Source of the DNA: Methylococcales bacterium
GTDB taxonomy: Bacteria > Pseudomonadota > Gammaproteobacteria > Methylococcales > Methylomonadaceae
DNA length: 38,922 nt
Assembly: GCA_003584865.1 (NCBI GenBank)
Contig: QVQE01000154.1
Location: 1-38,922 of the forward strand
Direction of reading: 5' to 3'
The position numbers and the translations under genes were made by a program. The notes beneath the pieces are model-generated. The model had not been told where the DNA came from, ran no database searches, and saw nothing but the letters and a program-made list of their open reading frames with translations. Positions 11,260-15,079 of the stretch are shown here, piece after piece; position 1 is the stretch's first letter; every line of letters starts with the position of its first letter.

Positions 11260-11454
11260 TTATAATCCACCGTCAGTGTGTCTAACGCCAGCCCAGAGAA
11301 TTTCTATATCCCATTCTCTCCATTTTCTTTTAACCATTTCAATGACTTTATCTACGCCTTCTAGTCTCACGCCTACCCAATCAAACTCCTCACTTCTTAC
11401 CACATTATGTCCTTCATTATCTCTACAGATAAAATTTACAGTATATCTATTCAT
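11260..11454 (-). CDS. Small hypothetical protein
   Basis: This 64-residue reading frame starts with ATG, preceded by AGGAG about 8 bases upstream. The protein is charged and amphipathic ('MNRYTVNFICRDNEGHNVV', then 'KVIEMVKRKWREWDIEILW'), with an alternating strand-helix pattern that looks like a real small domain. It is convergent with rsmD, and the stop codons are 3 bases apart. It lies just downstream of hypX on the same strand, separated by about 50 bases with a 6-bp hairpin. I recognise no family. The overlapping + frame at 11276-11476 has no ribosome site and is discounted. Confidence 0.5.
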   Translation of the reverse strand: MNRYTVNFICRDNEGHNVVRSEEFDWVGVRLEGVDKVIEMVKRKWREWDIEILWAGVRHTDGGL

Positions 11455-11505: not shown

Positions 11506-13704
11506 TTACTTTGATGTTACAACTCTATTTAAATCATGTTCTTTCTGGTAAACAATATTGAAAGGTATGTCAGAATGAATAATATGCTTTGCCCATCGAT
11601 CCATAAAATTCTGAATATCTGATTTCTTCCAATCGTTATTAGCTATCTTTCGATCCATCTCGATCAGTTTTTCCACAATGACTTCATGCTCCCTTTTATG
11701 TCCTTGAAAATTTCGAAAATCATATTGCTTCATCAAGTCTTCTTCTGCGTCAAAATGCTCTTTGACATGGGAAAAGATTAACTGAATGTTTTTTTTCAAT
11801 TCTTCTTTATTGATCGAAGAAACCAATTGATTAGCTAATATAAAGATTTCTTGATGCTGTTTATCCATTAAATCATCACTCATTTGGTATAAATCCTGCC
11901 AAATAAAGTGATACATGCTGCCTGGCGATACGGAGCTGATCTTTTCTGCCTGTTGTCGGTGATGTGCAATGTTGTCAGGTGTGGTTTTGTTATTATTAGT
12001 TTTATAAACAAAATTGTGTCGCGCTTGATGGTATTGCTCATTACCATAAAAATTGGCGTACATCTGAGTAAGCTCGAATTTTCTATAGGTAGCCAAGGCC
12101 TTTAATGATTCGTCATAACAGCGGGTTTTAGATTTTTCATCCAAACATTTTTGTAGGGTTTCATTATTAGCCGCATACGTATTGGCTAAATGTTTAATCT
12201 GAGCGGTAAAAATCTTATGGTTTTTATCGAGGACTTTGTCACACAGACCGATACGCCAGGCCATTTTGGCACTAATAGGTAAGCGTTGCTCTGTCAATGA
12301 GGTTGCAATTTCTTGACCTACTCGTTTGGGTAATAAATAGGTCCAATATTCAGAGCCGTATAACTCTCCCATATTTTTATAATGCGGATTAAAAATTACA
12401 CCTTCCCGCACAATGATTTGGTCAGTTGCTATGGCCAGGATAGCACCTCCTGCGCCTGCGTTACCCGCAACCGCAGATATAGTCACTTTATCGAGGGTTG
12501 TTATAATCTGATGGATTAGATCATCCATTGCATTGATATTTAACCATGACTCATCTGCTGGGCTGTCTGCCACTTCGATGTGATTAAGATGGATACCATT
12601 AGACCAGTTGTCTTCGCCCCCCATGAGTACGATTACTTTTACCGGCAAAGATGCAATGTGCTGATAAACGCTGAGCAGCAGTCGACATTGCTCAGTACTC
12701 ATTCCTCCATTATGGAAAGCAAAATGTAAATAGGCGACCTCATTTTCTTGTTCGTACCATACTTCCTGGACAGGCAGTTTTCGTCCGGGTTTTGTGTAGT
12801 CTATTTCCAGCAATTTAGGATTGCTATTACTTAGCAGATGAGTTAGTCTGAAGCTCCTGACTTGGTCATTTAATAAAAGTTCTTTTAACACAAAAGAAGC
12901 AGGTAATTTGACCCCTTTTTCGCCAGCGTCTAATTTCGGTTTTAAATGTCCAATCCAGATAGCGCCATCGATTGTTGCTCGACAAATAGCATGATTGGCT
13001 ATAGCAATAATATCTCCTGCTTTGCCTGTCAGATGCTGTTCTTTATGCCCATTAAATAAAAAATACTGTTTGCCATAAAGTTCATCCAATACGCCAGGAC
13101 TGCCATCAGCTGCATTAATACGTCTTAGAATTTCGTCAGTTTTATGGCTTTTCCAGTTAATGGCTCGATCGGGTTGCTTCATCGAAGGAAGGGTTTTACC
13201 ATTATAATCAGATCGATTGTAATCCTGCGTTTCAGGCTTAAAATCAGCAGCATCAAAATAAGTTAAAGCCTCCCATAAGCAGTCGACGGCTGCTTGAGTT
13301 ACTTCACGATAAAAAATACTGCTTTTGGTTGCCTGACGCATTGGAAATGTTTTGTTGGCCCAAATAGGACCGGCGTCCATTTCTTCTGCCGCTTCCAATA
13401 ATGATACACCCCATTCGGGTTCATTATTCTGAATAGCCCAATCTAAAGAAGAAGGACCACGGTCTCCTTTAATGCCGGGATGCACAATCAGGCATTTATA
13501 TTGCAGATAAATATCTTTGGGTAAATGTCGGGTTAAAAAAGGACATAAGATCAAATCAGGTTTGAACAATGCTACACCCTCTACTAAGGTCTCTGTATTG
13601 CCAAGATGCAATTCAACAGATACTGTATAACCAGCATCCTCAAGCTCAGTGTAAAAACGTTGGGTTAAACCAGAAAATGCCGATGAGATTAATAAAATAC
13701 GCAT
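11506..13704 (-). CDS. hypX: HypX/HoxX CO-forming hydrogenase maturation protein fused to a hemerythrin domain
   Basis: 732 residues, about 150-180 longer than usual HypX. Residues 1-260 form the formyl-tetrahydrofolate-binding domain, with 'HPGIKGDRGPSSLDW' at 75-89. Residues about 310-568 form the enoyl-CoA-hydratase-like domain: 'NGIHLNHIEVA', 'GNAGAGGA', then Y442 and E452 in 'NPHYKNMGELYGSEYW'. Their 10-residue spacing fits the catalytic Tyr/Glu pair reported for Aquifex HypX, from memory. The HypX end motif 'YRKFELTQMYANFYG' is present. A polar linker (569-596) leads to a complete hemerythrin domain with H617, H650, E654, H669, H673, H707 and D712 in the di-iron ligand pattern. HypX makes CO from formyl-THF via formyl-CoA for aerobic NiFe-hydrogenase assembly. 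Hemerythrin binds O2. A GGAAAG ribosome site precedes the ATG. The AraC-type regulator gene lies 76 bases upstream. No hydrogenase gene is in the window. Confidence 0.92.
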   Translation of the reverse strand: MRILLISSAFSGLTQRFYTELEDAGYTVSVELHLGNTETLVEGVALFKPDLILCPFLTRHLPKDIYLQYKCLIVHPGIKGDRGPSSLDWAIQNNEPEWGVSLLEAAEEMDAGPIWANKTFPMRQATKSSIFYREVTQAAVDCLWEALTYFDAADFKPETQDYNRSDYNGKTLPSMKQPDRAINWKSHKTDEILRRINAADGSPGVLDELYGKQYFLFNGHKEQHLTGKAGDIIAIANHAICRATIDGAIWIGHLKPKLDAGEKGVKLPASFVLKELLLNDQVRSFRLTHLLSNSNPKLLEIDYTKPGRKLPVQEVWYEQENEVAYLHFAFHNGGMSTEQCRLLLSVYQHIASLPVKVIVLMGGEDNWSNGIHLNHIEVADSPADESWLNINAMDDLIHQIITTLDKVTISAVAGNAGAGGAILAIATDQIIVREGVIFNPHYKNMGELYGSEYWTYLLPKRVGQEIATSLTEQRLPISAKMAWRIGLCDKVLDKNHKIFTAQIKHLANTYAANNETLQKCLDEKSKTRCYDESLKALATYRKFELTQMYANFYGNEQYHQARHNFVYKTNNNKTTPDNIAHHRQQAEKISSVSPGSMYHFIWQDLYQMSDDLMDKQHQEIFILANQLVSSINKEELKKNIQLIFSHVKEHFDAEEDLMKQYDFRNFQGHKREHEVIVEKLIEMDRKIANNDWKKSDIQNFMDRWAKHIIHSDIPFNIVYQKEHDLNRVVTSK

Positions 13705-14836: not shown

Positions 14837-15079
14837 ATAAGCTCCTTGCATATTGTTTACTAAAACAATTGGTTTCTGCAGTGACGGTAAATCTACTCTC
14901 ATTATAATTTCTACACAATGACATATTACCCTCATTTACTGCCAAAATTTATGGCCACTCTATATATCTACGTTTATGCGGGAGTTTATTTAATAAAATC
15001 CTGTTTATACGCTATCATAACCTTACGATTTTCTAGGCGTGTTGCTCTCAAATAATTTAATAGTGTTGACAGTTTTATT

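Follow-up and report, generated by a model that had tools for sequence, protein, structure and literature searches.

Fusion of HypX with a hemerythrin domain in the Methylococcales

The window analysed here, a stretch of 38,922 nucleotides from a Methylococcales bacterium, encodes, in one uninterrupted frame with an ATG start, a HypX joined to a hemerythrin domain (Table 1). Four Pfam domains, each above its own gathering cut-off, follow one another in the protein: Formyl_trans_N (residues 38-146), Formyl_trans_C (175-256), ECH_1 (354-568) and Hemerythrin (610-708). HypX of Aquifex aeolicus (PDB 6J0P) aligns with residues 1-584 at an E-value of 4.6e-155, and the alignment ends at residue 584. 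The His/Asp/Asp triad of the formyl-THF transferase domain (H75, D81 and D110) and the Tyr/Glu pair of the crotonase-like decarbonylase domain (Y442 and E452) are all present; their equivalents are the residues proposed to act in HypX in the excerpted text of PMC6802093. H75, D110, Y442 and E452 occur in all 40 fused rows of our tree set and D81 in 39 of them, the remaining one having a glutamate, while Y442 and E452 show no variation across the whole set of 90 rows. Judged by sequence, both HypX half-reactions, the transfer of formyl from N10-formyl-THF to CoA and the conversion of formyl-CoA to CO, have their catalytic residues in the fusion. The earlier note on this DNA gave coordinates, motifs and di-iron ligands that our ORF, domain and residue checks found to be correct throughout, and the fusion it described is real: the HypX is complete, and its catalytic residues and the seven di-iron ligands are intact.

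Table 1. Features at the hypX-hemerythrin locus (positions in the window)
Feature	Position	Strand	Evidence
hypX-hemerythrin fusion gene, 732 aa + stop	11506..13704	(-)	ORF, Pfam, NCBIfam, 6J0P alignment
HypX part, residues 1-584	11953..13704	(-)	Pfam, 6J0P alignment, residue check; roles from PMC6802093 (excerpts)
C-terminal HypX tail stretch, ~residues 569-589	11938..12000	(-)	6J0P alignment, PMC6802093 (excerpts)
Hemerythrin domain, residues 600-715	11560..11907	(-)	Pfam, NCBIfam, ligands, conservation, model, Foldseek
64-aa ORF, ~50 bp downstream of the fusion	11260..11454	(-)	relatives in other loci
AraC-type regulator with DJ-1/PfpI domain, 351 aa	13781..14836	(-)	ORF, Pfam, NCBIfam, relatives
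Conserved operator TGGCAGTAAATGAGGGTAATATGTCATTGT, presumed AraC/DJ-1 regulator site	14915..14944	(-)	exact match

The hemerythrin part follows the H-HxxxE-HxxxH-HxxxxD pattern, with H617, H650/E654, H669/H673 and H707/D712 as the seven di-iron ligands. The earlier assignment of this region to hemerythrin is borne out by PF01814, which scores 33.0 against a cut-off of 25.3, and by NCBIfam TIGR02481, which scores 67.2 bits at residues 602-712 against a cut-off of 51.75. The bacteriohemerythrin subfamily model NF033749 gives 64.7, below its cut-off of 84. As a predicted protein, the fusion has the HypX sequence features tested and matches the general hemerythrin profiles, but falls short of the narrower bacteriohemerythrin cut-off. 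All seven ligands are invariant in the 37 fused rows that are complete at those columns, and all seven columns are among the 19 invariant ones of 116 (37 rows; hypergeometric p 1e-6, relatedness ignored). The other three of the 40 fused rows are incomplete in hemerythrin, with a frame break (L113), a contig end (L128) or a shorter ORF (L122). Of eight fused pairs compared, seven give a dN/dS of 0.04-0.15 for the hemerythrin and one is saturated.

A hemerythrin-only model built from 34 fused homologues consists of helices with a mean pLDDT of 82.8. In keeping with the earlier assignment, its top eight PDB matches in Foldseek are all hemerythrins, though the E-values are weak (best 4.7e-3), and the 4XPW/4XPX set leads them (1.8 A over 106 columns for 4xpx). 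We take 4XPX to be the bacteriohemerythrin of Methylococcus capsulatus Bath. The full-length AF2 model of the fusion has a mean pLDDT of 70.4 and matches HypX structures first (Foldseek TMt 0.81-0.86 to eight HypX chains); block by block, pLDDT runs at 78-91 for the hemerythrin helices (621-700) and at 34-48 for residues 531-610. Because residues 531-610 model poorly, this model offers no usable interface between hemerythrin and HypX, and we draw no contact between the two from it. The earlier note had also suggested that the di-iron site might hold or oxidise CO; hemerythrin is reported not to bind CO in the excerpts of PMC13358151, so that suggestion is unlikely as written and CO oxidation at this site was set aside.

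Between the two parts, residues from about 569 to 589 align with, or directly continue, the C-terminal tail of Aquifex HypX, and the hemerythrin comes next. T575, A580, H582 and R583 of this stretch are invariant across the 20 fused rows of alignment A1. According to excerpts of PMC6802093, the tail in Aquifex HypX borders the CO exit (termed window B), a shift of the tail is proposed to allow CoA to flip into another conformation and CO to escape, and HypX complexes with HypC and HypD.

In the family, 72 of 237 genomes have HypX at an E-value of 1e-60 or better. Assigned by query coverage, the fused form is present in 48 of the 237, isolates among them, and 16 of the 72 have unfused HypX only; the comparison of fused and unfused forms does not use the remaining eight (056, 037, 160, 080, 227, 244, 038 and 180), in which the gene is broken, split or partial. 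The 48 include a genome with a frame break in hemerythrin (G047), one with the gene split over two contigs (G174), one in which a contig end cuts the gene (G237) and one with a stop flag (G228). Since the same fusion recurs in so many family genomes, an assembly join is very unlikely, and we reject both the join and the missed stop that the earlier note had raised against its own finding. Among the carriers are Methylobacter psychrophilus Z-0021, Methylovulum miyakonense HT12, Crenothrix polyspora RSM_CP2, Methylomonas methanica, M. koyamae and M. fluvii. A scan of named genomes, taking the best 80 of 556 relatives, gave 38 loci whose fused ORF is 540 aa or longer, the hemerythrin being incomplete in three, and the fused loci belong to records named Methylococcales or to unclassified proteobacterial bins that fall among the Methylococcales. 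A draw of 398 genomes across the phylum found HypX in 21 besides the window's, none of them matching beyond query residue 602. Within the genomes sampled, the fusion looks confined to the Methylococcales. The earlier note knew of no such fusion, and we likewise found no described HypX-hemerythrin architecture in the open-licence PubMed Central literature, where no paper found had "HypX" and "hemerythrin" together.

On a quick HypX tree (90 rows, 40 fused; 568 columns without the hemerythrin) the fused state needs five changes, and with a midpoint root the simplest reading is one gain followed by about four losses, in Crenothrix polyspora RSM_CP1, P-RSF-IL-24, Methylomicrobium CROMO and a second Methylomonas-type copy. 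The tree mapping that the earlier note had proposed fits a single gain of the fusion. The rows come from 98 loci (the window, 80 from the named-genome scan and 17 others), with the fragments L136, L143 and L145 left off, as well as L152, L155, L157, L168 and L173, in which an overlapping frame had been called instead; the fused rows include the near-copies L098 and L099 beside the window.

The regulator gene in the window is separated from hypX by 76 bp. It encodes 351 residues if the in-frame ATG in keeping with the length in relatives is taken as the start; the mechanical ORF starts at 14935. An AraC/DJ-1 gene lies upstream of hypX on the same strand in 33 of the 36 fused loci that have 1.3 kb or more of upstream sequence, at a spacing of 17-177 bp in 31 loci and with an overlap through a mis-called start in two. 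Downstream, a BioD/AAA_26-like ATPase gene is found in 14 of the 36 fused loci that extend 1.2 kb or more on that side. The 64-aa ORF has no Pfam match, but relatives follow hypX-hemerythrin at five other loci, none of them a near-copy of the window (L102, L104, L117, L140 and L143).

Upstream of the regulator gene there is a conserved element, TGGCAGAAAAnGAGGGnnnnnTGTCATTGT, whose two half-sites are 21 bp apart, the spacing to be expected for an AraC protein. The operator is exact in the window and has zero occurrences in 100 shuffles. It is matched at 20 or more of 30 positions in 43 of 54 regulator upstream regions, 13 of which had supplied the alignment from which the consensus was first read; the 99.9th percentile of shuffled sequence is 19. 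We scanned 2.40 Mb of loci, mostly chosen around hypX and with duplicates included, which gives a partial view of the regulon. Sites precede nirK in L073 and L110, paired genes encoding an Hcr-like NADH oxidoreductase and a PPOX-globin protein in L164, L179 and L183, and small ORFs. In L059 a site precedes a fused hypX without araC, and a neighbouring gene there is nirK-like (275 bits, below the cut-off of 296). In the hydrogenase and hyp loci scanned, including L031-L035, L074-L076 and L093-L097 of this genome, no operator site exceeds 14 bits. We infer from the order of the genes and from the operator that production of the fusion is governed by a dedicated AraC/DJ-1 regulator and not jointly with the hydrogenase genes.

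The statement in the earlier note that no hydrogenase gene is in view holds for the window but not for the genome (74.8% complete), in which the search it had advised found both [NiFe]-hydrogenase and hyp genes on other contigs. One contig (C44) encodes a large subunit (PF00374, 753 bits) together with a small subunit and cytochrome b, a HycI-type protease, HupF/HypC-, HyaE- and HupH-like proteins, a HupK-like protein (named by eye), HypA and HypB; another (C40) has HoxF, U, Y and H including a HoxH-type large subunit (HoxF, U and Y read by eye). A further related large subunit, its type also read by eye, is on C34, and C19 has HypF and, at a contig edge, a HypD fragment. No second HypX was found in the host. 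As the host has [NiFe]-hydrogenases, the classical use of HypX is possible, and CO supply for their maturation is plausible. In a survey of 97 Methylobacter genomes, [NiFe]-hydrogenases were reported in all (PMC12810054, excerpts).

In the flanks examined (from less than 1 kb to about 8 kb per side, longer in the window), hyp or hydrogenase genes were found at none of 39 fused loci and none of 20 unfused methylotroph loci. Such genes flank HypX at 11 of 14 loci from non-methylotroph bacteria, and in L175 HypX directly follows HypD and HypE. Siting with hyp or hydrogenase genes is a usual feature of HypX, not a required one. A hemerythrin near hyp genes in G067 was dropped from consideration, unrelated genes lying in between.

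Among family genomes at least 90% complete and at most 5% contaminated, HypX is present in 48 of 147 with HypD and 8 of 26 without (Fisher p 1, relatedness ignored); across the family, HypX is independent of HypD. Under the same thresholds, HypD is found in 35 of 36 genomes with fused HypX versus 10 of 16 with unfused HypX only (p 0.002, phylogeny ignored), and over all 48 fused genomes 43 have HypD and two more a PF00374 match. The fused form mostly goes with hydrogenase machinery. Neither a PF00374 nor a HypD match was found in three fusion carriers, Crenothrix polyspora RSM_CP2 (G152, 88% complete), G218 (78%) and G237 (63%), nor in the HypX genomes G043 (Crenothrix polyspora RSM_CP1), G051, G089 (P-RSF-IL-24), G184 and G267. 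The other HypX genomes without a HypD match, 13 in all, are G023, G024 and G038, with PF00374 large-subunit matches, and G179 and G056, with one short PF00374 match each. HypF was absent from six of the seven HypD-less HypX genomes searched (G023, G024, G043, G051, G056 and G089) and present in G038. Absence calls leak in draft genomes, since G023, listed as 100% complete, and G024 have large subunits and no HypD or HypF match. The five catalytic positions of HypX are intact in G043 (copies on C48 and C13; a third copy is degraded), G051, G089, G179, G184, G267 and G152. A pairing of hemerythrin loss with hydrogenase loss as a rule is weakened by RSM_CP2, which keeps the fusion with no hydrogenase found, and by G065 and G087, which have HypD yet no hemerythrin on HypX.

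Five of five Methylobacterium genomes searched, M. mesophilicum NBRC 15688 among them, have HypX and no PF00374 or HypD match; the five genomes from outside the genus in the same searches have both. Two Methylobacterium pairs, which cover four of these five genomes, have HypX dN/dS values of 0.17 and 0.18; three control pairs (two Nitrosomonas, one gammaproteobacterial) have 0.08, 0.16 and 0.16, hyp genes being seen at the locus or in the genome for all control rows but L176. Methylotroph HypX looks decoupled from hydrogenase and seems to lead an existence apart from hydrogenase gene clusters. The earlier note had allowed for a function beyond hydrogenase maturation; this gains support at the level of the clade, but the host itself has hydrogenases.

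A sister arrangement occurs in 11 Methylococcales loci: behind another, unfused HypX come a response regulator and an MHYT-PAS-histidine kinase with its MH(Y/F) motifs kept. In L188 an AraC gene, HypX, the response regulator, the MHYT kinase and a BioD-like gene form a single run, which links the AraC-HypX and HypX-MHYT operon types. An MHYT match was obtained in 10 of 23 HypX genomes searched, the window genome included. Excerpts of PMC11347149 describe the MHYT domain of CoxC as sensing CO through copper and cite NO responses for other MHYT proteins.

Our preferred reading, held at about even odds, is an O2-responsive CO synthase that has its O2-binding module within the same chain. The hemerythrin would hang on the C-terminal tail that borders the CO exit in Aquifex HypX, and binding of O2 or oxidation of the di-iron site might change the mobility of the tail and so set CO output; O2 control over CO formation, like each link from O2 to CO, is what we infer here. 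Since hemerythrin binds O2 but reportedly not CO (PMC13358151, excerpts), it would be well suited as an O2 module next to a source of CO. In a host with at least two [NiFe]-hydrogenases, part of the CO would most likely become the Fe-CO ligand, and expression would be under the dedicated AraC/DJ-1 regulator, apart from the hydrogenase genes. A wider proposal, tentative and rather unlikely, is that HypX in methylotrophs has turned into an enzyme that makes CO under regulation, as a gas signal within the cell. The AraC/DJ-1 protein would turn it on together with nitrite/NO genes, O2 would set its output through hemerythrin in one branch, an MHYT kinase of the same operon would read the gas in another, and hydrogenase maturation would be an ancestral or parallel use.

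Other readings share much of this evidence. It is somewhat unlikely that the CO is a signal or effector in a low-O2/nitrite response independent of hydrogenases, with the hemerythrin as O2 gate of one branch, MHYT kinases reading the sister branch and hydrogenases as at most a second customer. The five Methylobacterium genomes with HypX and no PF00374 or HypD, set against five comparison genomes with both, argue for it, as do their HypX dN/dS of 0.17 and 0.18, near the 0.08-0.16 of hyp-bearing pairs. So do the catalytically intact HypX of G043, G051, G089, G184 and G267, with no PF00374 or HypD match, the independence of HypX from HypD (48/147 versus 8/26, p 1), the MHYT kinase row of 11 loci taken with the CO sensing by CoxC (PMC11347149, excerpts), and the union of both operon types in L188. 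Yet the MHYT operons hold unfused HypX rather than the fusion protein, other MHYT proteins are linked to NO in the same excerpts, and the MHYT match extends to only 10 of 23 HypX genomes. Moreover, the fused form is mostly found with hydrogenases, absence calls leak (G023 and G024 have PF00374 matches but no HypD or HypF), and recent hydrogenase loss may be an alternative. The link of the fused form to hydrogenase machinery speaks for a local shield, in which the hemerythrin only removes O2 where CO meets the O2-sensitive Fe site of HypCD and exerts no control over HypX. Excerpts of PMC12134894 suggest O2 sensitivity of either an early step in maturation or the Fe-CO group, and those of PMC6802093 place HypX in complexes with HypC and HypD and the CO exit next to the tail. 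We nevertheless regard a shield as rather unlikely: one di-iron site per enzyme would, we reason, be a small sink unless it turned over, the HypX of the 21 other phylum-draw genomes goes without a hemerythrin domain, and RSM_CP2 keeps the fusion with no hydrogenase found.

The positions of operator sites before nirK (L073, L110), before the Hcr-like reductase and PPOX-globin pair (L164, L179, L183), and in L059, with its nirK-like neighbour (275 bits, cut-off 296) and fused hypX without araC, would suit a di-iron domain that responds to NO instead of O2 and ties CO synthesis to nitrite/NO stress; this is quite improbable, nirK being nearby in only 2 of 40 fused loci and the scan covering loci mostly near hypX rather than whole genomes. 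Formyl-THF fluxes are large in methylotrophs, and hypX in L148 lies about 2.3 kb from metF, so the HypX part might instead make formyl-CoA or formate for C1 metabolism, with CO not the product; the invariance of the decarbonylase residues Y442 and E452 in 90 of 90 tree rows makes this very doubtful. That the hemerythrin is a neutral passenger is hardly credible: it has been lost about four times on the tree and is broken in at least one further genome (G047), but its seven ligands are kept in 37 of 37 complete rows and its dN/dS is low.

HypX has so far been described as a hydrogenase maturation factor. With HypX in methylotrophs in which no hydrogenase was found, with a regulator and operator of its own and with a fusion to an O2-binding domain, enzymatic CO production for purposes other than hydrogenase becomes testable. 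The fusion is a single-chain system in which to ask how O2 and CO synthesis are coupled, and it touches the open question of where the CO ligand comes from with and without air. What interests us most goes beyond the fusion itself: the apparent existence of HypX outside hydrogenase clusters in methylotrophs.

Compared with the HypX of Aquifex aeolicus (PDB 6J0P) and HypX/HoxX of Cupriavidus necator (Ralstonia eutropha), the protein is alike over residues 1-584, which align and have the same catalytic residues and fold. Unlike them it has a C-terminal hemerythrin, lies outside a hyp/hydrogenase cluster in the flanks examined, and is preceded by an AraC/DJ-1 regulator gene. Its hemerythrin has the fold and all seven ligands of a 4XPX-type bacteriohemerythrin, but is 24% identical to 4XPX in the Foldseek alignment and is fused to an enzyme rather than free. 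Attachment of a hemerythrin to an output domain is also seen in the sensors DcrH, Bhr-DGC and Bhr-HD-GYP (PMC9388753, excerpts). The outputs listed in those excerpts are chemotaxis, c-di-GMP and P-type ATPase functions, and the words "formyl", "enoyl" and "hydrogenase" are absent from the whole text; the output here is a predicted CO synthase. Finally, the operon of the sister HypX group has the same domain type as the CoxC/MHYT gas sensors described in excerpts of PMC11347149; unlike CoxC, a regulator of CO oxidation, the MHYT domain of the sister operon is part of a histidine kinase and stands beside an enzyme that makes CO.

The putative operator preceding the AraC/DJ-1 regulator gene, which itself lies upstream of the fused hypX, was found in 43 of the 54 regulator upstream regions in the loci examined, with its half-sites spaced by 21 bp. 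Further putative operator sites occur in these loci: some precede small ORFs, others nirK or a pair of globin and reductase genes. Near hypX lie genes for small proteins of about 46-86 aa, which fall into three families; for two of the three, some loci (L117, L073 and L182) have a putative operator site before the member gene.

Downstream of hypX, a gene for a BioD/phosphotransacetylase-N-like ATPase is present in 14 of 36 HypX-hemerythrin fusion loci that extend at least 1.2 kb downstream, and also in L130, L139 and L188. This BioD-like gene is followed by a multiheme cytochrome c gene in L057, L058, L048, L113, L130 and L188, and all of these except L188, where none was found, have an additional gene with a single CXXCH.

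Features at hypX loci (L, genomic locus; G, family genome; C, contig)
Feature	Location	Strand	Remark
Putative operator	window 14915-14944	-	strongly conserved
Small-protein gene	window 11260-11454	-	near hypX
Small-protein gene	L105:10332-10559	+	near hypX
Small-protein gene	L179:9384-9614	-	near hypX
BioD/phosphotransacetylase-N-like ATPase gene	L038:9578-10339	+	
hypX immediately before putative sdhC, D, A, B (succinate dehydrogenase)	L178:3702-7039	-	read by eye
hypX immediately before putative sdhC, D, A, B	L179:3655-6999	-	read by eye
Unfused HypX, response regulator, MHYT histidine kinase	L188:495-9030		consecutive genes
Third HypX copy	G043:C126:31797-33485 (L082)		degraded

No match to [NiFe]-hydrogenase or HypD was found in the Methylobacterium genomes of HypX loci L161, L148, L154, L162 and L171; in L148, metF is about 2.3 kb away from the HypX gene. 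The third copy in G043 has two catalytic residues replaced by K and N, and a stop flag is present. The row of unfused HypX, response regulator and MHYT kinase genes recurs in L083, L068, L158, L164, L187 and others.
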